DNA from: Ornithinibacillus bavariensis
GTDB lineage: Bacteria > Bacillota > Bacilli > Bacillales > Amphibacillaceae
Assembly (NCBI RefSeq): GCF_018333235.1
Contig: NZ_BORP01000003.1
Location: 186,001-250,000, forward strand
Length of the DNA stretch: 64,000 bases
Direction of reading: 5' to 3'
Made by a program: the position numbers and the translations under genes. Below the pieces are notes generated by a model, which saw nothing but the letters and a program-made list of their open reading frames with translations, had not been told where the DNA came from and ran no database searches. Below, piece by piece: positions 47,109-64,000 of this stretch. Numbering within the stretch: the stretch's first letter is position 1; every line of letters begins with the position of its first letter.

Positions 47109-47426
47109 CTACATAAGTGAATAAGAGGTCATTAGACTCAAAATATTATCTTCCTGAATCGTATTATAAGCTACCTTATTCCGTTGTAATTTACCACATT
47201 TTATACATTCATGAATAATTTGATAACCCTTTTTCCCAGAGTAGTCTAAGCTAATCGGACGCATTAAGCCCTGACAATTACTTAAACGATCACCAGGTTG
47301 ATTATCGAGGTGCTTTGAAAATAAACAAAATGGACAGTGATTTCGATAGCTGCCATTTGTTAAAGGCATGACATTTGCTCCACAATTTCCGCATTGAAAA
47401 GCTGTGTTTTCTGATATTCTACTCAA
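47109..47426 (-). CDS. RNHCP-domain zinc protein
   Basis: A 105-residue protein named for its RNHCP motif (YRNHCPFCLFSKH, near residues 27-39). It has three CxxC pairs (CGNCG, CPFC, CIKCG), so it probably binds zinc in one or two ribbons. The start is taken at TTG 47426 with GGAGG 9 nt upstream; the extension to 47459 contains the ribosome site. It is monocistronic with a strong terminator. The family is widespread in bacteria, and its function is unknown. Confidence 0.82.
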   Translation of the reverse strand: MSRISENTAFQCGNCGANVMPLTNGSYRNHCPFCLFSKHLDNQPGDRLSNCQGLMRPISLDYSGKKGYQIIHECIKCGKLQRNKVAYNTIQEDNILSLMTSYSLM

Positions 47427-47487
47427 CGTTATCTTCCTCCAAGATGAATTTTCCATCATTGGAGAAAGGGTTCCGTTTGTTTTCCTA

Positions 47488-47693
47488 CTAAAAATGTAGT
47501 TTCAGGCTTTTAAGGCGAAGGGACATATTCACCGCTCTGTTCTGGAGAGCGATTACTTCTAGTTCCTGCTTCACAAGGACATGTTGCATCCCCTGATCCG
47601 GACCATGATTGACTTTTTCATAATTGTATCAACCACTGTAAGACGGACTTCTCCACCTTCCACTAGTAGGTGTTCATCCTTAATCACTGACAT
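47488..47693 (-). pseudogene. Frameshifted small gene
   Basis: ATG 47693 has AGGGGA about 8 nt upstream. The frame reads MSVIKDEHLLVEGGEVRL and TVVDTI, then meets an early stop at 47571. Restoring one T in ATTATG joins it to a second open frame (YEKVNHGPDQGMQHVLVKQE, then LEVIALQNRAVNM) that ends at 47488. The combined product of about 68 residues has no family I recognise. Two separate tiny genes are less likely than one broken gene. The remaining bases to 48012 show no coding signal. Confidence 0.4.
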
Positions 47694-53851: not shown

Positions 53852-56257
53852 ATGGTCTATATAGCCCATGTTCGCGAAAATGATCAGGAAATTCAAACTG
53901 TTTCCGAGCATTTACTTGGCGTTAAACGTTTAGCAGAGGTATTTGGCGAAAAATTAGGGCTAGCTCATGTTGCTGGTTTAGCAGGCTTGCTTCATGACTT
54001 GGGAAAGTATACAGATGTTTTTCAAGAATACATAATACAAGTAGCATTTCATCAGGAACCCGCTGAAAAAAAACGTGGCGAGGTTGATCATTCAACAGCC
54101 GGAGGAAAATTGCTGTTCTCCATGTTCCATAATAAAAATAATACACCTCAAGAAAAATTACTAACCGAAATAGTCGGAAATGCCATTATTTCACACCACA
54201 GTAATTTACATGATTACATTTCCCCAGATATCAAATCCGACTTTTTAAGGCGTGTAAGGGATAAAGATTTAGAAGAATATCCACTAGCCGTTGAACGCTT
54301 TTTCGAAGAAGTAATAACAGAGAAGGACTTTAAACAATATGTATACAATGCCTTGGATGAATTAATGCAATTCATAGATTCTAGTCCTACACAAATTTTC
54401 TTTCTAACAAAATTTATTTTTAGCTGTTTAGTCGATGCTGATAGAACAGATACTAGACAATTTGAAGAAAAGAGGAAAGAAGTACAGGATTCGCAATTTG
54501 GAAGTCTATTCGCCTCCTACTATCAAAAATTATTGAATAAACTCATTTCCTTTAAAAAGGGTAAAAAAGGTAATGAGCAAATCAATAAATTACGACAAGA
54601 ATTGTCAGAACAATGCGACTCATTTGCTGATAAACCCTCAGGTATTTATACTTTGTCAATTCCAACAGGAGGAGGAAAAACACTAGCTAGCCTCCGATAT
54701 GCACTTAAACATGCACAAAAATTTGATAAACAGCGGATTATATACGTTGTACCATTTACAACAATAATTGAACAAAATGCAGAAGAGATTAGAAAGATAT
54801 TGGAAGACGATATACATCTATTAGAGCATCATTCCAATGTTATTGATGATGAAGAGGAAAATGATGAACTACTCGATGGTTTGATTACAAAGAGAGAAAA
54901 ACTAAAACTTGCACGTGATAACTGGGATAGCCCTATTATTTTCACTACACTTGTCCAATTTTTGAATGTTTTTTATGCCAAAGGAAATAGAAATACACGA
55001 CGATTACATAATCTAAGTCATTCTGTACTTATCTTTGATGAAGTACAGAAGGTTCCGACAAAAAGTGTATCCCTTTTCAATGAAGCGCTAAACTTTTTAA
55101 AAAAAGATGCTCACTCTAGCATTCTGCTTTGCACTGCAACCCAACCAACATTGGATCATGTAAATCATTCTCTATTGAAAAACAGAGATGGAGAGATTGT
55201 TCAAAATCTGCCAGAAGTTTTTAAAGCATTTAAGAGGAATGAGATTATTGATCGAACAGGTACACAGATAAATAATAACCAGTTAGCTGATTGGATTCAT
55301 TCTAATGCAGAATCATGGGTTAATACACTTGTAATATTAAATACAAAGTCAGTGGTTAAAAAACTTTACGAAGCTTTAAAGGATGGTCCATTACCAGTTT
55401 ATCATTTGAGTACAACTATGTGTGCAGTACATCGGAAAGATATTTTAAACAAAATAAAGAAATTATTGAAAAATAAAACCCCTTTTATATGCGTGACAAC
55501 TCAATTGATTGAAGCCGGTGTTGATGTAAGCTTTAAGCGTGTAATTCGATCATTGGCTGGACTCGATTCCATTGCTCAAGCAGCTGGAAGATGTAATAGG
55601 CATGGTGAAGATGGTGTCCAAGATGTATACGTGATTGATCATGCTGATGAAAAACTTACGAGATTGAAGGAAATTAAAACTGGTAAAGAGATAACAGGGA
55701 ATATTCTTGCAAGATATAAAAAGGTCGCTGAGGAATATGATAAAAGCTTATTATCGTATACAGCGATGAATGAATACTTCCAGCATTATTATAAAAAAAT
55801 GGAAACAGATTTAAACTATTATATTCCTAAGGTAGAAAAAGACATGACGAAATTGTTGATGGCTACTCGAAGGGAAAACGATTATCTCAAAGCATATGTG
55901 AAAAAATATAAAGCAGGATTTCCACTAGTTTTAACCGGCAGTTATAAAACAGCAGCAGACTATTTCCAAGTTATTGATCAACAGACTACTTCTGTAATTG
56001 TACCTTATGGCGATGGAAAAGAAATTATCGCAAAGTTAAATAGTGTTAAGAGAATAGAAGATTTATCAAAACTATTAAAGCGAGCGCAACAATATACGGT
56101 TAATGTATATTCACAAGCCTTAAGACAATTGAACCAGGATAATGCTATTGTTCCGCATCTAGAAGGCATGATTTATGAGCTAAGGGAGAATTGGTACAGT
56201 GAAGATTATGGTGTTGATTTTAAAGGAGAAGGTGAGATGGACTTTATGTCATTTTAA
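53852..56257 (+). CDS. cas3: CRISPR-associated helicase/nuclease Cas3 (type I-C)
   Basis: Degrades DNA recruited by the Cascade complex. The 801-residue protein has an N-terminal HD nuclease domain (His20, then LLHDLGK with His48-Asp49, DHSTAGG, ISHHSN) and a superfamily-2 helicase: Walker A IPTGGGKTLA, DExx box FDEVQ (a DEVQ variant), LLCTATQPT as motif III and QAAGRCNRHGE as motif VI. ATG 53852 follows AGGGGGT by 7-8 nt and removes 41 weak upstream codons. Both halves look intact. A 233-bp gap separates it from cas5c. Confidence 0.95.
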   Translation: MVYIAHVRENDQEIQTVSEHLLGVKRLAEVFGEKLGLAHVAGLAGLLHDLGKYTDVFQEYIIQVAFHQEPAEKKRGEVDHSTAGGKLLFSMFHNKNNTPQEKLLTEIVGNAIISHHSNLHDYISPDIKSDFLRRVRDKDLEEYPLAVERFFEEVITEKDFKQYVYNALDELMQFIDSSPTQIFFLTKFIFSCLVDADRTDTRQFEEKRKEVQDSQFGSLFASYYQKLLNKLISFKKGKKGNEQINKLRQELSEQCDSFADKPSGIYTLSIPTGGGKTLASLRYALKHAQKFDKQRIIYVVPFTTIIEQNAEEIRKILEDDIHLLEHHSNVIDDEEENDELLDGLITKREKLKLARDNWDSPIIFTTLVQFLNVFYAKGNRNTRRLHNLSHSVLIFDEVQKVPTKSVSLFNEALNFLKKDAHSSILLCTATQPTLDHVNHSLLKNRDGEIVQNLPEVFKAFKRNEIIDRTGTQINNNQLADWIHSNAESWVNTLVILNTKSVVKKLYEALKDGPLPVYHLSTTMCAVHRKDILNKIKKLLKNKTPFICVTTQLIEAGVDVSFKRVIRSLAGLDSIAQAAGRCNRHGEDGVQDVYVIDHADEKLTRLKEIKTGKEITGNILARYKKVAEEYDKSLLSYTAMNEYFQHYYKKMETDLNYYIPKVEKDMTKLLMATRRENDYLKAYVKKYKAGFPLVLTGSYKTAADYFQVIDQQTTSVIVPYGDGKEIIAKLNSVKRIEDLSKLLKRAQQYTVNVYSQALRQLNQDNAIVPHLEGMIYELRENWYSEDYGVDFKGEGEMDFMSF

Positions 56258-56490: not shown

Positions 56491-57204
56491 ATGAAAAACG
56501 AAATCCAATTTGAGATATTTGGCGATTATGCCCTTTTCACAGACCCGCTTACCAAAATTGGTGGTGAAAAGCTTTCATATAGTGTACCGACGTACCAAGC
56601 TATAAAAGGAATAGTAGAATCCGTTTATTGGAAGCCAACAATCATGTTTATTATTGACGAACTTCGTGTCATGAAACCAATTCAGATGGAGTCAAAAGGA
56701 ATTCGGCCAATTGAATATGGCGGTGGGAATACACTTGCGAACTATACCTATTTGAGGGATGTGCATTACCAGGTAAAGGCACATTTTGAATTTAATATGA
56801 ACCGCCCTGATATGGCATTTGATCGTAATGAAGGGAAGCACTTTAGCATTCTTCAGCGAGCATTGAAAGCTGGTGGTCGTAGAGACATTTTCCTTGGCAC
56901 AAGAGAATGTCAGGGCTACGTGGAACCTTGCGAATATGGAAGTGGAAAAGGTTACTATGATGAAATTCACGCAGATTATACACTCGGAACAATGGTACAT
57001 GGTTTTAATTATCCAGATGAAACAGGAAAAAATCAATTAGAAGTCAGATTATGGCGACCAGAAATGAAGAGGGGATATATTCAGTTTCCTAGACCCGAAA
57101 ATTGCAAGATTATAAGACCAATTAAAGAAATGGAAGCAAAATTTTTTAATGAAGAAAATATAGAATCTGTTGAATCGTTGTCTCGTTCGTTAGGGGGGGA
57201 ATAA
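56491..57204 (+). CDS. cas5: Cas5c (Cas5d), pre-crRNA endonuclease and Cascade subunit
   Basis: In type I-C systems Cas5 replaces Cas6: it cuts the repeat RNA and stays on the 5' handle. The 237-residue protein has the RAMP ferredoxin fold with a glycine-rich segment (IEYGGGNT, residues 74-81). Tyr46 (SVYW), Lys116 and His117 (EGKHFS) lie at exactly the numbers described as catalytic for the Bacillus halodurans enzyme, so it should be active. AAAGGAGGTG precedes the ATG. cas8c follows after 2 nt. Confidence 0.95.
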
Positions 57205-57206
57205 GA

Positions 57207-59120
57207 TTGAGTTGGTTGCAGAATCTGTACAAAACCTACAATGACAATGAAGAATACGTTGGAAAAATAGTCAAGAAACGAAGTGATCGGGAGTATACAT
57301 TATTACCGATTTCCCATACAACACAAAATGCGCATATTGAAGTTACAGTTGATGAATATGGGAATTATTTGAAAGGAATTGTACTAGAAAAAGAGAATAC
57401 TATTATTCCTTGCACTGAGGAGTCTGCAAGTCGTGCAGGTTCAAAGGTTGCACCATACCCATTACATGATAAATTAAGTTATGTTGCAGGTGACTTTGTA
57501 AAATATGGAGGGAAAATTAAAAATCATGACGATATCCCTTTCGAGTCATATATCAAGAATTTAAAGGAATGGGCAGAATCACCACATACCACAGAAAAAG
57601 TAATAAGTATTTATAAATATGTATGCAAAGGACGGTTGATTGAAGATTTGGTTAACGATGGTCTTCTAGTGTTGGATGAGAATCAACAATTAATTGAGAA
57701 GTGGAATAAGAAGCTCGAAGAAACCCTTGGAGAAAAGCCATTAATCTTTTCTAGTGGTGCTACAGATCAAGTAAGTGCTTTTGTTCGATTTAATGTTTAT
57801 AAACGAACATCCACAGTAGAAGTATGGAAGGATAAAGAAGTATACCAGTCTTTTATTGACTTTTATAATGAAAAATTAGGTGATGAGGATGTTGACTTTG
57901 TAACAGGTAAAATAGCTCCAAGTACAGAGCGACATGCCAATAAAATTCGTCATGCAGCCGACAAGGCAAAATTGATTTCAGCGAACGACACTTCAGGATT
58001 TACTTTCCGCGGTAGATTTACGACTAGTAGGGACGCTGCTAGTATTAGCTATGAGGTATCACAAAAAGCCCATAATGCATTAAAGTGGCTAATTCACCGT
58101 CAGGGGAAAACTATTGATAACCGTGTATTTCTTGTTTGGGGGAATGATGGCAAAAATGTCCCTTACCCAGTTGAAGACGCCTTGGATATTTTGCAACATA
58201 CAAATCAAAACATAGAAACAGATCCGGATACAGATAAACCTTTTGCAGAAGAAGTAAAAAGAGCTATAGATGGATATCGAAATGATCTTGACTATGACTC
58301 AGAAGTTAACATAATTGTTCTTGACTCTGCGACTACGGGAAGAATGGCAGTTCTTTATTATCGAAATATGAATAAAGAGATATACCTTAATCGATTAAAA
58401 GATTGGCATTCAAAGTGTATATGGGAGCATAGATATCGCAGAAGTGAGGAGAGATTTGTGAAATTTTACGGTGCTCCAGCAACGAAAGATATTGCTTTTG
58501 CAGCATATGGTCCTAGGGCGAGTGAAAAAGTTGTAAAGGGCTTAATGGAAAGATTGCTTCCTTGTATTATAGACGGACGTGTTGTTCCGAAGGATATTAT
58601 GAAAAGTGCTTTTCATCGAGCATCTAATCCTGTTACGATGGAGCATTGGGAATGGGAGAAAACCCTGAGCGTTACCTGTGCATTAATACGAAGATCATTG
58701 CTTGAAGAAAAGGAGGAAATGGATGTGACATTAGACAAAGATATTACTGATCGTAGTTACCTATTTGGTAGATTGTTAGCAGTTGCTGATGTACTAGAGA
58801 GAAGTGCACTTGGTAAAGAGGAAACGAGAGCTACTAATGCAATACGTTATATGAATTCTTTTTCACAAAAGCCGAGCCGAACATGGATGACTCTGCAGGC
58901 GAGTTTACAACCATATCAATCAAAGCTTGGGGCAAAAGCGAACTATTTATCAAAAGTTATAGATGAGATTAGTGATAAATTTTCTATTGATGATTTTAAT
59001 AATAAGCCACTATCTGAAAAATTTTTATTGGGTTTTTACAGTCAACGTCGAGAACTATATATGAAAAAAGAAAAAAATATTGAAAGTGAGGAACAAATAA
59101 ATGAGTATACTCGACCATAA
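57207..59120 (+). CDS. cas8c: Cas8c (Csd1), large subunit of type I-C Cascade
   Basis: The 637-residue large subunit recognises the PAM and stabilises the R-loop. The Csd1 signature regions are present: WLQNLYKTYN at the N-terminus, then FTFRGRF, SYEVSQKAHNALKWLI and RVFLVWGN, plus SKCIWEHRYRR. The start is TTG 57207 with a G-rich ribosome site 6-7 nt upstream. It lies 2 nt after cas5c and overlaps cas7 by 20 nt. The last 131 codons also form an independent unit for the small subunit (see the Cas11c entry). Confidence 0.95.
   Translation: MSWLQNLYKTYNDNEEYVGKIVKKRSDREYTLLPISHTTQNAHIEVTVDEYGNYLKGIVLEKENTIIPCTEESASRAGSKVAPYPLHDKLSYVAGDFVKYGGKIKNHDDIPFESYIKNLKEWAESPHTTEKVISIYKYVCKGRLIEDLVNDGLLVLDENQQLIEKWNKKLEETLGEKPLIFSSGATDQVSAFVRFNVYKRTSTVEVWKDKEVYQSFIDFYNEKLGDEDVDFVTGKIAPSTERHANKIRHAADKAKLISANDTSGFTFRGRFTTSRDAASISYEVSQKAHNALKWLIHRQGKTIDNRVFLVWGNDGKNVPYPVEDALDILQHTNQNIETDPDTDKPFAEEVKRAIDGYRNDLDYDSEVNIIVLDSATTGRMAVLYYRNMNKEIYLNRLKDWHSKCIWEHRYRRSEERFVKFYGAPATKDIAFAAYGPRASEKVVKGLMERLLPCIIDGRVVPKDIMKSAFHRASNPVTMEHWEWEKTLSVTCALIRRSLLEEKEEMDVTLDKDITDRSYLFGRLLAVADVLERSALGKEETRATNAIRYMNSFSQKPSRTWMTLQASLQPYQSKLGAKANYLSKVIDEISDKFSIDDFNNKPLSEKFLLGFYSQRRELYMKKEKNIESEEQINEYTRP
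58725..59120 (+). CDS. cas11c: Cas11c small subunit from an internal start in cas8c
   Basis: Type I-C effector complexes contain Cas11c, a small subunit translated from within cas8c. Here AAGGAGG (58710-58716) precedes GTG 58725 by 8 nt, in the cas8c frame. The predicted 131-residue product begins at MTLDKDITDRSYLFGRLLAV and covers the helical C-terminal domain; it ends with cas8c. An ATG at 58719 has only 2 nt spacing and is less suitable. Internal translation is known for the subtype; this exact site is inferred from the sequence. Confidence 0.8.
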   Translation: MTLDKDITDRSYLFGRLLAVADVLERSALGKEETRATNAIRYMNSFSQKPSRTWMTLQASLQPYQSKLGAKANYLSKVIDEISDKFSIDDFNNKPLSEKFLLGFYSQRRELYMKKEKNIESEEQINEYTRP

Positions 59121-59958
59121 AGTTGATTTTGCTGTAGTTTTATCTGTTTCAAAGGCTAACCCGAATGGCGATCCGCTAAATGGAAACCGTCCACGTCAAA
59201 ATTACGATGGACATGGAGAGATTTCAGACGTTGCTATCAAACGAAAAATCCGTAACCGATTGCAAGATATGGGGGAATCCATTTTTGTTCAATCTGATGA
59301 CCGCAAAACAGATGGCTTTAAGAGTTTAAAGGAAAGAGCAGAATCTGATGAAACCTTAGCAAAAATGTTAAAAGATAAGAAAGCTGCACGTGATAAATTT
59401 GCTTCAATTGCTTGTGAGAAATGGATAGACGTCCGCAGTTTCGGACAAGTGTTTGCTTTTAAGGGATCTGATCTTTCCGTAGGTGTTCGTGGTCCCGTGA
59501 GTGTTCAAACAGCAACTAGTATTGATCCGATCGATATCACAAGTTTACAGATTACTAAAAGTGTGAATTCAGTTACAAGTGACACTAAGGGTTCTGACAC
59601 TATGGGAATGAAGCATCGTGTAGACTTTGGAGTATATGTATTCAATGGAAGTATTAATACACAACTTGCTGAAAAAACGGGATTTACAAATGAAGACGCA
59701 GAAAAAATTAAACAAGCTTTAATTACACTATTTGAAAATGATAGTTCATCTGCACGACCTGATGGTAGTATGGAAGTTCATAAAGTATACTGGTGGGAGC
59801 ATAGCTCTAAACTAGGTCAATATTCTTCCGCAAAAGTACATCGTTCTTTAAGAATTGAAGCTAAAACAGATGCTCCGAAGTCTTTTGATGAAGACAATTA
59901 TACGATAGCATTACATGACTTACAAGGTCTAGCGGTGGAAGTATTTAATGGGCAATAA
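59101..59958 (+). CDS. cas7: Cas7 (Csd2), Cascade backbone subunit
   Basis: A 285-residue backbone protein that polymerises along the crRNA. The N-terminal strand DFAVVLSVSKANPNGDPLNG is the family mark. RSFGQVFAF, VGVRGPVSVQ and MGMKHRVDFGVYVFNGS are other conserved parts, giving the RRM-like palm with a thumb loop. It overlaps the end of cas8c by 20 nt and cas4 by 11 nt. The start ATG 59101 follows GTGAGGAAC-like pairing within cas8c. It is of typical length. Confidence 0.95.
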   Translation: MSILDHKVDFAVVLSVSKANPNGDPLNGNRPRQNYDGHGEISDVAIKRKIRNRLQDMGESIFVQSDDRKTDGFKSLKERAESDETLAKMLKDKKAARDKFASIACEKWIDVRSFGQVFAFKGSDLSVGVRGPVSVQTATSIDPIDITSLQITKSVNSVTSDTKGSDTMGMKHRVDFGVYVFNGSINTQLAEKTGFTNEDAEKIKQALITLFENDSSSARPDGSMEVHKVYWWEHSSKLGQYSSAKVHRSLRIEAKTDAPKSFDEDNYTIALHDLQGLAVEVFNGQ

Positions 59959-60604
59959 TGAAGATCAATACTTAATGTTGTCAGGTCTACAGCACTTTGA
60001 GTTTTGTCGCCGACAATGGGCATTGATCCATATTGAACAACAATGGGAAGAGAATGTAAAAACAATTGAAGGACAGCATTTGCATCAAAAAGCTGATCAA
60101 CCATTTGTCCGTGAAAAACGTGGTGAAAAGCTGATCGTACGAGCGATGCCTATACAATCTCATCATTTAAAATTGAATGGTATCTGTGACGTTGTTGAAT
60201 TTATTGAAAATCCAGATGGTGTCGAATTAGCTGGAATGAATGGTTTATTCTTACCATATCCAGTTGAATATAAACGAGGTAAACCAAAAAAAGGTGACGA
60301 AGATATTATTCAACTAGTAGCACAAGCAATTTGTTTAGAAGAAATGCTTCTTTGTAAAGTCGATAAAGGGTTTCTCTATTACCATGAAATAAAGCATCGT
60401 GTGGAAGTGCCTATAAATGAAACTTTTAAAAATAAAGTGACAGAGATGGCAAAGGAAATGCACCATTATTATGATAATCGGCATACACCTAAAGTTAAAA
60501 CAGGTCAACATTGTAAAAGCTGTTCATTACAACATATTTGTTTACCGAAGCTAATGATGAAGCATTCTGTAAAAAGTTTTATTGAAGGGAGGTTGAACGA
60601 GTGA
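59948..60604 (+). CDS. cas4: Cas4 nuclease for prespacer trimming
   Basis: A 218-residue PD-(D/E)xK exonuclease with a Fe-S cluster that works with Cas1-Cas2 to choose spacers with a correct PAM. The cluster cysteines are visible: one in EFCRRQW (near residue 18) and three in GQHCKSCSLQHICLP (near residues 184-193). The catalytic core includes GICDVVEF and PVEYKRGKPK, and a RecB-like QL-AQAICLEEM segment. It overlaps both neighbours (11 nt with cas7, 4 nt with cas1), a sign of coupled translation. Confidence 0.95.
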   Translation: MGNNEDQYLMLSGLQHFEFCRRQWALIHIEQQWEENVKTIEGQHLHQKADQPFVREKRGEKLIVRAMPIQSHHLKLNGICDVVEFIENPDGVELAGMNGLFLPYPVEYKRGKPKKGDEDIIQLVAQAICLEEMLLCKVDKGFLYYHEIKHRVEVPINETFKNKVTEMAKEMHHYYDNRHTPKVKTGQHCKSCSLQHICLPKLMMKHSVKSFIEGRLNE

Positions 60605-61632
60605 AAAAATTGCTAAACACGTTGTTTGTTACCCAATCGGATGTTTATTTGTCATTAGATGGGGATAATATTGTGTTGCTAAAAGATCAGGAACAACTCG
60701 GGAGGCTTCCTTTACATAATTTAGAAAGTATCGTTAGTTTTGGATACACAGGAGCTAGTCCTGCGCTAATGGGATACTGTGCTGAACGTAATATATCAAT
60801 TGCCTTCCTAACAAAGAACGGAAGGTTCTTGGCACGGGTAATTGGTCAAAGTAGAGGTAATGTCACGTTAAGGAAGAAACAATATCGTTTATCCGATGAC
60901 GAGCAAGCCTCAGCAAGAATTGCACGTAATTTTATCTTTGGTAAAATCTATAATAACAAATGGATACTTGAACGAATGACAAGAAATTATCCATTTCGTA
61001 TAGATGTTGATCGTTTTAAAGAAATATCTAACCACCTGACTTCGATTCTCCAAGAAGTAAGAAAATGTGAAGATTTAGATAGCCTAAGAGGTTGGGAAGG
61101 ACAAGCCGCTATTAGTTATAATAGGGTCTTTAATTCTATGATTCTACAACAAAAAGATGATTTTTATTTTCATCAGCGCTCTAGGAGACCGCCAAAGGAC
61201 AATGTAAATGCAATGCTTTCTTTTGCCTATACACTTCTTGCAAATGATACTGCGGCTGCTTTGGAAACTGTTGGTCTCGACGCTTATGTTGGTTTTATGC
61301 ACCGTGATAGGCCTGGACGCGTATCTCTTGCTCTTGATCTGATGGAAGAATTAAGAGGAGTTTTTGCAGATAAATTTGTATTATCCTTAATAAATCGCAA
61401 AGAGGTAAACAAGGATAATTTTTATAAAAAGGAAAATGGCGCTATATTAATGACAGATGATGCCAGAAAAATTTTTTTGAAGTCCTGGCAGTTGAAGAAA
61501 CAAGATAAGATAACACATCCATTCCTATCTGAAAAAATAACATGGGGACTGGTACCTTATGTACAGGCATTATTACTTGCACGACACTTACGTGGCGATT
61601 TAGATGAATATCCACCATTTTTATGGAAGTAG
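60601..61632 (+). CDS. cas1: Cas1 integrase (type I-C)
   Basis: Central integrase of adaptation, 343 residues. The N-terminal beta domain (LFVTQSDVYLSLDGDNIV) is followed by the helical catalytic domain with the metal-binding Glu in RGWEGQAAISYNRVF (near residue 165), His in GFMHRDRPGR (near 233) and Asp/Glu in SLALDLMEELR (near 246). The GTG start overlaps the cas4 stop codon (GTGA). Cas2 follows 8 nt downstream. Confidence 0.96.
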   Translation: MKKLLNTLFVTQSDVYLSLDGDNIVLLKDQEQLGRLPLHNLESIVSFGYTGASPALMGYCAERNISIAFLTKNGRFLARVIGQSRGNVTLRKKQYRLSDDEQASARIARNFIFGKIYNNKWILERMTRNYPFRIDVDRFKEISNHLTSILQEVRKCEDLDSLRGWEGQAAISYNRVFNSMILQQKDDFYFHQRSRRPPKDNVNAMLSFAYTLLANDTAAALETVGLDAYVGFMHRDRPGRVSLALDLMEELRGVFADKFVLSLINRKEVNKDNFYKKENGAILMTDDARKIFLKSWQLKKQDKITHPFLSEKITWGLVPYVQALLLARHLRGDLDEYPPFLWK

Positions 61633-61640
61633 GTGAATTG

Positions 61641-61931
61641 ATGCTAGTTTTAATTACGTATGATGTTAGTACCTCAAGTAAAGGTGGAACAAAAAGACTT
61701 AGAAAAGTTTCAAAGGCATGTCAAAATTATGGACAACGTGTACAAAACTCTGTCTTTGAATGCATTTTAGATGCTACACAATATACAATATTAAAACATG
61801 AATTGGAGCAACTTATTGATTCCACTACAGATAGCCTTCGATTTTATAATTTAGGGAACAATCATAAAACTAAAGTAGAGCATATTGGAATAAAAGAATC
61901 TATAGATTTAGAAGAACCATTATTATTTTAG
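61641..61931 (+). CDS. cas2: Cas2 (type I-C)
   Basis: A 96-residue ferredoxin-fold partner of Cas1 in spacer integration. The first strand VLITYDVST carries the conserved Asp, and QNSVFECILDATQY and the C-terminal beta strands also match. ATG 61641 follows AGGTGA by 6 nt; the frame from 61623 overlaps cas1 and is not preferred. It is the last cas gene, and the leader and array follow in the same orientation. Confidence 0.95.
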   Translation: MLVLITYDVSTSSKGGTKRLRKVSKACQNYGQRVQNSVFECILDATQYTILKHELEQLIDSTTDSLRFYNLGNNHKTKVEHIGIKESIDLEEPLLF

Positions 61932-61979: not shown

Positions 61980-62104
61980 TAATTAACCACATACTTTTAG
62001 GAAAATAATGGGAAATAATAAGGAAAAGTTATGTGAATTAGTATATTTTCAGAGGGAAAATATTTTTTTCGAATATGCGTTCTTGTTTTTTAAAGGAATT
62101 CGCT
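61980..62104 (+). promoter_or_regulatory. CRISPR leader
   Basis: A 125-bp AT-rich, non-coding stretch directly before the first repeat, on the cas2 side, which is where new spacers join. It should hold the pre-crRNA promoter and the integration signals; no -10/-35 pair is named with confidence. Confidence 0.75.
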
Positions 62105-64000
62105 GTCGCACTCTTTATGGGTGCGTGGATTGAAATCAAAAGGGGCATCATCAACAATCGGTTGGTGGTGGTCGCACTCTTTATGGGTGCGTGGATTGAA
62201 ATTATCTTGAACAAGATCCCAGGTGTCCATATCAATGTCGCACTCTTTATGGGTGCGTGGATTGAAATCTCTAATACGTGTATCTAAGTTTTCAAATAAT
62301 GGAGTCGCACTCTTTATGGGTGCGTGGATTGAAATTGTAAAGTAGGAATATCTACAGATGAAGTTGAACCGTCGCACTCTTTATGGGTGCGTGGATTGAA
62401 ATTGTTATGATCTTTGTATTTATTTGGTTTTCCAGTGTCGCACTCTTTATGGGTGCGTGGATTGAAATATAGTCTAACCGAGGAAGAAATGACGTATATC
62501 CATAGTCGCACTCTTTATGGGTGCGTGGATTGAAATTCTATTGATATTAATAGTAGTTATCCCTATGTAAGTCGCACTCTTTATGGGTGCGTGGATTGAA
62601 ATGGGTTTAGTATCGTACCATCCTTGTCCTGGTCGAGTCGCACTCTTTATGGGTGCGTGGATTGAAATATGTCAATGGTTTGACGTGCTTTTAATCCATC
62701 ATGTCGCACTCTTTATGGGTGCGTGGATTGAAATGTTTAAACTAGTAAGCTCTTTAATCTGTGAAGTGTCGCACTCTTTATGGGTGCGTGGATTGAAATT
62801 AATGCATCTTGCTTACTGTATCCTGCTTCCTTGGTCGCACTCTTTATGGGTGCGTGGATTGAAATTCTTTGATGTTCTTTGTCCAACATCCGGAAAACTG
62901 TCGCACTCTTTATGGGTGCGTGGATTGAAATAAATGTTGGGAAGGAGGTAATCGTCAAGTGATAAGTCGCACTCTTTATGGGTGCGTGGATTGAAATTTT
63001 GAAGGTGATAAAGTTATTCTACGTGATGGTGTCGCACTCTTTATGGGTGCGTGGATTGAAATCTATTTAGTGCGTACCCTAAAGATTGTGGCCCGGTCGC
63101 ACTCTTTATGGGTGCGTGGATTGAAATCAAACGAAAATAACTTGATGAATAATTTACATACGTCGCACTCTTTATGGGTGCGTGGATTGAAATTTCGAGA
63201 TTGGTATTTATCCAGTTTTCCAAACTAGTCGCACTCTTTATGGGTGCGTGGATTGAAATTGATACGGAAGCGAAAAGTAATCGAAGTTTTACCGTCGCAC
63301 TCTTTATGGGTGCGTGGATTGAAATGCTAACAATCTGTATATTATCGAAGCTGTTCCCCGTCGCACTCTTTATGGGTGCGTGGATTGAAATATTGCCGAT
63401 ATGGCGGTTGTAAACCAAATTAAGAGTCGCACTCTTTATGGGTGCGTGGATTGAAATCCTTAAACTTTGGGCATTATCTCGCATAACCTCAGTCGCACTC
63501 TTTATGGGTGCGTGGATTGAAATCCCGTTATAAACATCACCGTTGAACACCTCTACGGTCGCACTCTTTATGGGTGCGTGGATTGAAATACCACTACGTC
63601 TGTTTGCGTGTCGCAACCATATTGTCGCACTCTTTATGGGTGCGTGGATTGAAATACCACTACGTCTGTTTGCGTGTCGCAACCATATTGTCGCACTCTT
63701 TATGGGTGCGTGGATTGAAATCGTTGGGATATAGTATCTTTAGAAAGTCATCAGACGTCGCACTCTTTATGGGTGCGTGGATTGAAATCTCTGTATCTTG
63801 GGGTAGAAGGGGAATGAACCCCGTCGCACTCTTTATGGGTGCGTGGATTGAAATGGAACGAATACAAATGCTAAACCTAAAAGTACAAAGTCGCACTCTT
63901 TATGGGTGCGTGGATTGAAATGACTCTAAAACGCTGAACATTTAAACCACTAAAATGTCGCACTCTTTATGGGTGCGTGGATTGAAATATAGCCTTCTTC
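62105..64000 (+). CRISPR. Type I-C CRISPR array, 29 repeats visible, continues beyond the window
   Basis: The 32-bp repeat starts GTCGCACTCTTTATGG and ends GTGCGTGGATTGAAAT; all 29 copies (62105-62136 to 63957-63988) read the same. There are 28 complete spacers of 33-36 bp, mostly 34, and a partial one at the edge. The repeat holds a CGCAC/GTGCG hairpin, and the last 11 nt (TGGATTGAAAT) would form the 5' handle after Cas5c cleavage. The leader is at the cas2 end, so new spacers are at the low-coordinate side. Spacers 23 and 24 (63590-63623, 63656-63689) are identical. Confidence 0.98.

Follow-up and report, generated by a model that had tools for sequence, protein, structure and literature searches.

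An internal start codon in cas8c of Ornithinibacillus bavariensis, conserved at the nucleotide level and predicted to yield the type I-C small subunit Cas11c, with mobile relatives and a tandem fusion

The Cascade complex of type I-C CRISPR (clustered regularly interspaced short palindromic repeats) systems contains a small subunit, Cas11c, made from an internal start within cas8c, the gene of its large subunit. This internal start was reportedly first described in a 2020 Molecular Cell paper. In Desulfovibrio vulgaris, an internal ribosome site has been reported, native mass spectrometry placed two Cas11c copies beside Cas8c in Cascade, and this pair, stacked behind the large subunit, is likely to carry the non-target strand (PMC7684278). 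Type I-C Cascade reportedly fails to assemble in the absence of Cas11c (Tan 2022, as cited in PMC11899642), and PMC11899642 also presents Cas11b and Cas11d of types I-B and I-D, which share the principle of a small subunit obtained through an in-frame internal start in the large-subunit gene while belonging to other subtypes and other large subunits. Here we describe such a start in a window of 64,000 nucleotides (nt) from Ornithinibacillus bavariensis (contig NZ_BORP01000003.1, positions 186,001 to 250,000), by which we mean the whole stretch of DNA that was analyzed and to which coordinates refer unless a locus is named (G and L numbers are our own handles for genomes and loci). The first-pass annotation of this window took it as known that type I-C Cascade needs a small subunit produced by internal initiation; the internal start for Cas11c is established biology of type I-C, and the window adds one more case.

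The cas8c (Csd1) gene, encoding the large subunit of type I-C Cascade, spans 57207..59120 on the forward strand (TTG start, 637 residues) and matched NCBIfam TIGR01863 with 512 bits (cut-off 218.65) as well as Pfam PF09709. Inside it, sequence, pairing energy and the conservation of GAGG delineate an internal Shine-Dalgarno sequence, AAAGGAGG (58709..58716, forward strand), of which AAGGAGG (58710-58716) lies 8 nt (58717-58724) before an in-frame GTG at 58725, exactly to the base as the first-pass annotation had described. This GTG (58725-58727) is codon 507 of cas8c and opens 131 codons followed by the stop at 59118-59120; the predicted cas11c gene (58725..59120, forward strand, 131 residues) shares its frame and its stop with cas8c. 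Judged from the sequence, 58725 is almost certainly the translation start of Cas11c. Pairing energies were computed against an assumed canonical anti-Shine-Dalgarno tail and gave -12.5 kcal/mol for the internal GTG, the strongest value among 108 internal in-frame start codons (ATG, GTG or TTG at least 20 codons inside the seven cas genes). The 63 cas8c genes introduced below contain 1473 further internal in-frame start codons, of which 0.07% reached this value. The earlier statement that this was the strongest site of the operon apart from that of cas5c did not survive the calculation by pairing energy, as the sites of cas1 (-17.4) and cas2 (-14.1, for ATG 61641) surpass it together with that of cas5c (-17.9), the weaker ones being those of cas7 (-11.8), cas8c (-11.5), cas3 (-10.5) and cas4 (-6.4). 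For cas2, the value is only -1.8 if the start is ATG 61623.

Conservation was compared across related genomes. Within a family sample of 159 genomes, 28 had any match and 26 carried a full-length cas8c, the window's own included, all 26 with a start codon in the GTG column. The order sample had matches in 53 of 397 genomes, and the 30 loci fetched from it contributed 28 new ones, 2 being already in the set. Adding 11 loci from named genomes resulted in 65 loci, or 63 cas8c genes after the removal of 2 duplicates. A start codon occupies the GTG column in 63/63, through three different codons, and GAGG lies upstream of it in 60/63. Had the amino acids alone been kept, codon use predicts both features in 6.2 of the 63 genes, with a probability of 0.034 for the window gene taken by itself, and across the 618 columns tested the runner-up combines a start codon with GAGG in 3/63, with no other column of the 618 presenting a start codon in at least 90% of the 63 genes. 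The glutamate codon of the motif is GAG in 57/57, against a mean of 31% across 29 Glu columns, and where the start codon encodes valine it is GTG in 47/47, against 24% across 26 Val columns, comparisons that both retain the relatedness of the sequences. The median pairing energy at the site is -13.6 in the 63 genes versus -3.2 at the 1473 other codons. A further set of 58 loci was drawn from class and phylum searches and from the family of genome G542; 4 were unreadable at the site, namely L087, L094 and L101, all three tail-only matches, and the incomplete L152, and the remaining 54 rows, minus the stand-alone gene L085 and two rows of a fused gene, left 51 cas8c (4 of them from genomes counted already), which kept the start codon in 51/51. 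The start signal is under selection at the nucleotide level. As a separate observation, L095, L098, L104, L106 and L108 keep the Cas11c start codon with a weaker site (AAAGAAGGG or similar) and have an extra in-frame ATG two codons upstream.

Several points weigh against this interpretation. GAGG is absent in 3/63 genes (L067, L068 and L069; about 41% identity or less), which belong to a Mariprofundaceae bacterium, Haloferula and Rhodoferax, and the site is weaker in several rows of the class sample (e.g., L095, L104, L106 and L108). The sampling covered 30 of the 53 matching order genomes and at most 30 loci each from 63 class and 73 phylum matching genomes. The anti-Shine-Dalgarno tail had to be assumed because the 3' end of the 16S ribosomal RNA (rRNA) was unreadable in the draft genome, the window's own site ranks 49th of 63 in strength, and local RNA folding leaves it only partly accessible (unpaired probability 0.16-0.82 over 58710-58716). 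Finally, an out-of-frame ATG at 58723, followed immediately by TGA (58723-58728), overlaps the Cas11c GTG with good spacing and might compete with it.

That Cas11c is instead made from the ATG at 58719, giving 133 residues, or that much initiation is lost to the ATG-TGA at 58723, we regard as highly unlikely; the first-pass annotation had noted neither of these ATGs. ATG is usually a stronger start than GTG, the ATG at 58723 lies 6 nt past AAGGAGG, the one at 58719 is in frame, and an ATG two codons upstream recurs in some relatives (L009, L013 and L014; L095, L098, L104, L105, L106 and L108). However, the ATG at 58719 is only 2 nt past AAGGAGG, too close by common experience, and neither ATG is conserved as a start: the in-frame ATG column is unconserved, whereas the GTG column holds a start codon throughout the 63 genes and is where the solved Cas11c starts. 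An overlapping out-of-frame ATG turns up in 16 of the 47 genes that start with GTG, in line with codon use (15.2 expected); with this frequency and the full ATG-TGA in only 4 of the 47, a conserved regulatory role for ATG-TGA was rejected.

Initiation at 58725 also agrees with what is known of the product. The C-terminal domain of Cas8c is itself a Cas11-type domain, and the predicted gene sits in frame at the C-terminus of cas8c, has its own Shine-Dalgarno sequence and start codon at the known Cas11c start position, and encodes a homolog of Cas11c with a helical-bundle fold. Aligning the region with known Cas11c starts, as the first-pass annotation had suggested, put residue 1 on residue 489 of D. 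vulgaris Cas8c, and the homology to solved Cas11c chains together with the helical bundle bore out its expectation of a helical product of 131 residues. The D. vulgaris system and that of the window share the C-terminal part of cas8c, the internal ribosome site, the aligned first residue, the helical bundle and the subtype; they differ in sequence (34% identity over 110 aligned residues), in the GTG start of the window and in that the window's product is predicted from sequence. In PDB 8G9S, which we take to be the type I-C system of Neisseria, Cas11 is likewise a separate chain (124 residues) beside Cas8 and derives from the same region, with 29-31% identity in the aligned Cas8 chains. Site, homology, matching start position and nucleotide-level selection together support the proposed Cas11c. 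The first-pass annotation expected standard annotation to miss this gene; NCBIfam, Pfam and PADLOC label the stretch as part of Cas8c/Csd1; PHROGs gave no match to it.

It is extremely unlikely, in our estimate, that the conserved nucleotides act on cas8c as a pausing or regulatory signal, or that Cas8c is cleaved to release the small protein. Slowing of ribosomes has been proposed for Shine-Dalgarno-like stretches within genes. In Haloferax volcanii, type I-B Cascade forms without Cas11b (PMC11899642), so that not all type I systems need a small subunit. A pause element, however, requires no start codon at a fixed distance, and here one is kept in every gene via three codons; a cleavage site would be conserved as amino acids, whereas the residues near codon 507 vary; and the internal ribosome site is published for D. 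vulgaris (PMC7684278).

Under internal initiation, one cas messenger RNA, which the cas genes probably share, would be read by two sets of ribosomes, one producing Cas8c from the TTG at 57207 and the other, bound at 58709-58716 within the cas8c frame, producing Cas11c from the GTG at 58725. The last 131 residues would thus also exist as a free helical bundle with the same sequence as the C-terminal end of Cas8c. Along the backbone of Cas7 and CRISPR RNA, copies of this small protein would follow the C-terminal domain of Cas8c, which has a like fold, and would probably hold the displaced DNA strand. This genome's internal site is presumably used, and its better pairing with a GTG (-12.5), compared with the Cas8c start (-11.5, TTG), would help to yield more Cas11c than Cas8c.

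A different arrangement was found in G542, a Bacilli genome whose type I-C operon has a cas8c of 893 residues with three tandem Cas11 domains in one frame (L115 5663-8341, corresponding to G542:C4:87662-90340). The three domains are 63-70% identical among themselves and 46-49% identical to that of the window. Their start columns read ATT in domain 1 (site -8.8), ACA in domain 2 (-2.1) and ATG in domain 3 (only -1.5). Matches occurred in 3 of 29 genomes of its family, G542 included, and the two relatives keep GAGGAGG...ATG (-13.6) and AAGGAGG...GTG (-12.2). The simplest reading is that the two added domains replace internal initiation, with one large and two small units in one chain, and that the internal signal has decayed. 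G542 is a single case, the only genome with more than one Cas11 match per frame among 398 class and 398 phylum genomes (samples that overlap). The long open frames of G204 (922) and G198 (913) were rejected as further fusions, the cas8c genes there having 629 and 621 residues.

Cas11c-like genes were also found without surrounding cas genes, in the family search (L027-L030), on plasmids (best of 25 records opened) and on IMG/VR contigs. Twenty-one loci were checked for cas genes. Two, L153 (MT836291.1) and L161 (IMGVR_UViG_3300010162_000756), were dropped as stand-alone carriers since they hold type I-C cas7-cas4-cas1-cas2; filed as phage, they are either phage-borne systems or misfiled bacterial DNA. 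L084 is apparently the same contig as L034, and the 18 remaining loci plus L162, judged by annotation, make 19 distinct loci. No cas3, cas5, cas7, cas4, cas2 or N-terminal part of cas8c was present in the 18 loci within the 3 to 16 kb examined, and L080 gave a weak partial cas1 match (E 3e-4). These mobile relatives, as distinct from the window gene, are phage- or plasmid-borne without the other cas genes, as an anti-CRISPR might be. The stand-alone genes include L031 7887-8336, L032 7420-7734, L033 7269-7742, L074 6198-6668, L075 6655-7188, L079 7992-8453, L081 1233-1724, L082 8001-8324, L083 3505-3954, L155-L160 and L162 6001-6327, carried by prophages, phage contigs and plasmids; L080 and L085 look frame-broken.

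A helix-turn-helix tail is present, as judged by alignment coverage or translation, in 16 of the 19 loci and absent in L032, L082 and L162; class-sample matches covering this tail alone (query from about 90) were not taken as Cas11c relatives. Comparison of the mobile family profile with that of Cas11c aligned 105 columns, which span almost the entire domain (E 4e-25), and the predicted model of one mobile protein is a helical bundle with a small mixed tail (predicted local distance difference test score 89). Foldseek gave no match for the phage protein at E <=0.001, its best six (2.2e-3 to 3.4e-2) being type I-C Cascade chains. The sole match of the phage family in a PDB profile search was the Xis protein 4J2N, via the tail, and PHROGs likewise matched the L027 protein by its tail, to excisionases and the like; no phage record matched the L027 protein at E 0.001. 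Open reading frames adjoining several stand-alone genes resemble phage lysis or tail genes (by eye only), and plasmid pPLP3 has the antirestriction gene ardA about 5 kb from its stand-alone gene. Among the titles, abstract openings and passages searched in the open-access literature, subscription papers and preprints being outside the search, we found no description of these mobile proteins or of a Cas8c with tandem Cas11 domains, either of which may be in print.

Two precedents are relevant here. Solitary repeats are known as RNA anti-CRISPRs, one of them beside acrIC5 (PMC10651486), and AcrIB4 resembles the end of Cas8b and is described as impairing type I-B immunity (PMC13131331). AcrIB4, compared here with the mobile relatives rather than with the window gene, is an anti-CRISPR protein with homology to the Cas8 C-terminal domain; it differs in being a 9.1 kDa type I-B protein, whereas the mobile family is Cas11c-like, mostly has a helix-turn-helix tail and consists of candidate inhibitors. 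From the solitary repeats and the likeness of AcrIB4 we therefore raise, tentatively and with somewhat more doubt than confidence, the possibility that the phage and plasmid proteins are decoys of the type I-C subunit and that the G542 fusion fixes a 1:2 ratio and might exclude such a decoy. Cas11c would be a weak point because it is a free, repeated subunit; a decoy would take the position of the real subunit in type I-C Cascade and disable the complex, the decoy's helix-turn-helix tail would control its own gene, and the G542 host, by tying two extra Cas11 domains to Cas8c and giving up the internal start, would fix the ratio.

In a prophage of G194 (contig G194:C8), a solitary type I-C repeat (L075 6573-6604, reverse strand) lies about 50 nt downstream of the stand-alone gene on the same strand and is like the host's own repeat at 30/32 nt (by eye). 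Host spacer 23 differs from this solitary repeat at a single position, and the match is flanked by TTC, the type I-C motif. The spacer is itself repeat-like, and the match could conceivably stem from an array rearrangement, although spacer and prophage copy have the flank and both differences in common. Such a repeat occurred in only 1 of the 19 loci (L075; full pattern, at most 6 substitutions), and the pattern had 0 matches in five shuffles of all loci; 16-nt repeat matches in L081 and L160, with 3 substitutions, were left out of the count. Own spacers compared with the contig stretches bearing the mobile gene gave near-perfect matches in G141 (5 spacers) and G194 (40) and none in G073 (19) or G278 (9), and G731 had no array within the 3 kb available. 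The match in G141 falls 25 kb from the stand-alone gene on its contig, with one mismatch and TTC. Among eight spacer matches inspected, the TTC flank was present in 6 and absent in 2, and a reversed-spacer control gave one weak 14-nt match. A stand-alone gene and a full cas8c shared a genome in 2/4 versus 24/155 of the family sample (p 0.13) and 2/2 versus 43/395 of the order sample (p 0.013), or 4/6 pooled (p 0.003), a count that rests on few genomes and hand-listed carriers from samples that have a few genomes in common, and that omits G731 (class sample), where both genes are present.

The surroundings of cas8c in the window form a complete type I-C locus, cas3-cas5c-cas8c-cas7-cas4-cas1-cas2 with an adjacent array, all on the forward strand, and its seven open reading frames are all assigned, none being cas6 or a separate cas11. 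The cas3 gene (HD and helicase, 53852..56257) was recognized by TIGR01587 and TIGR01596, searched from 53855, and by site energy its start is likelier ATG 53852 than the GTG 53729 of the reading-frame list. It is followed by cas5c (56491..57204, TIGR01876) and, after cas8c, by cas7 (Csd2; 59101..59958, TIGR02589), whose first 20 nt lie within the end of cas8c/cas11c, cas4 (59948..60604, TIGR00372), the type I-C cas1 (60601..61632, TIGR03640) and cas2 (61641..61931, TIGR01573), for which the ribosome site of ATG 61641 is better than that of ATG 61623. The CRISPR array (62105..64000), with the 32-nt repeat GTCGCACTCTTTATGGGTGCGTGGATTGAAAT, runs to near the window edge, and 28 spacers were read within 62001-64000.

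Elsewhere in the window, a 175-nt element at 47509-47683 (reverse strand) resembles part of the small-subunit rRNA (RF00177, 79 bits in its own genome; RF02542, 59.8 bits). It lies just upstream of a reading frame (47109-47459, reverse strand) with the letters RNHCP, presumably an RNHCP domain, and is present in 16/155 family genomes, its own included; such a frame stood beside it in 12/12 loci fetched, counting that of the window. The element is possibly an rRNA-mimicking leader.

Taken together, the window gains a gene that the family libraries searched do not name on its own, through a sequence test, a start codon and a Shine-Dalgarno sequence held against synonymous drift, that needs no experiment. 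The G542 fusion looks like a natural rescue experiment, the prediction being a functional Cascade in which a single polypeptide replaces three and free Cas11c is absent, and the mobile relatives point to a testable class of candidate type I-C inhibitors.
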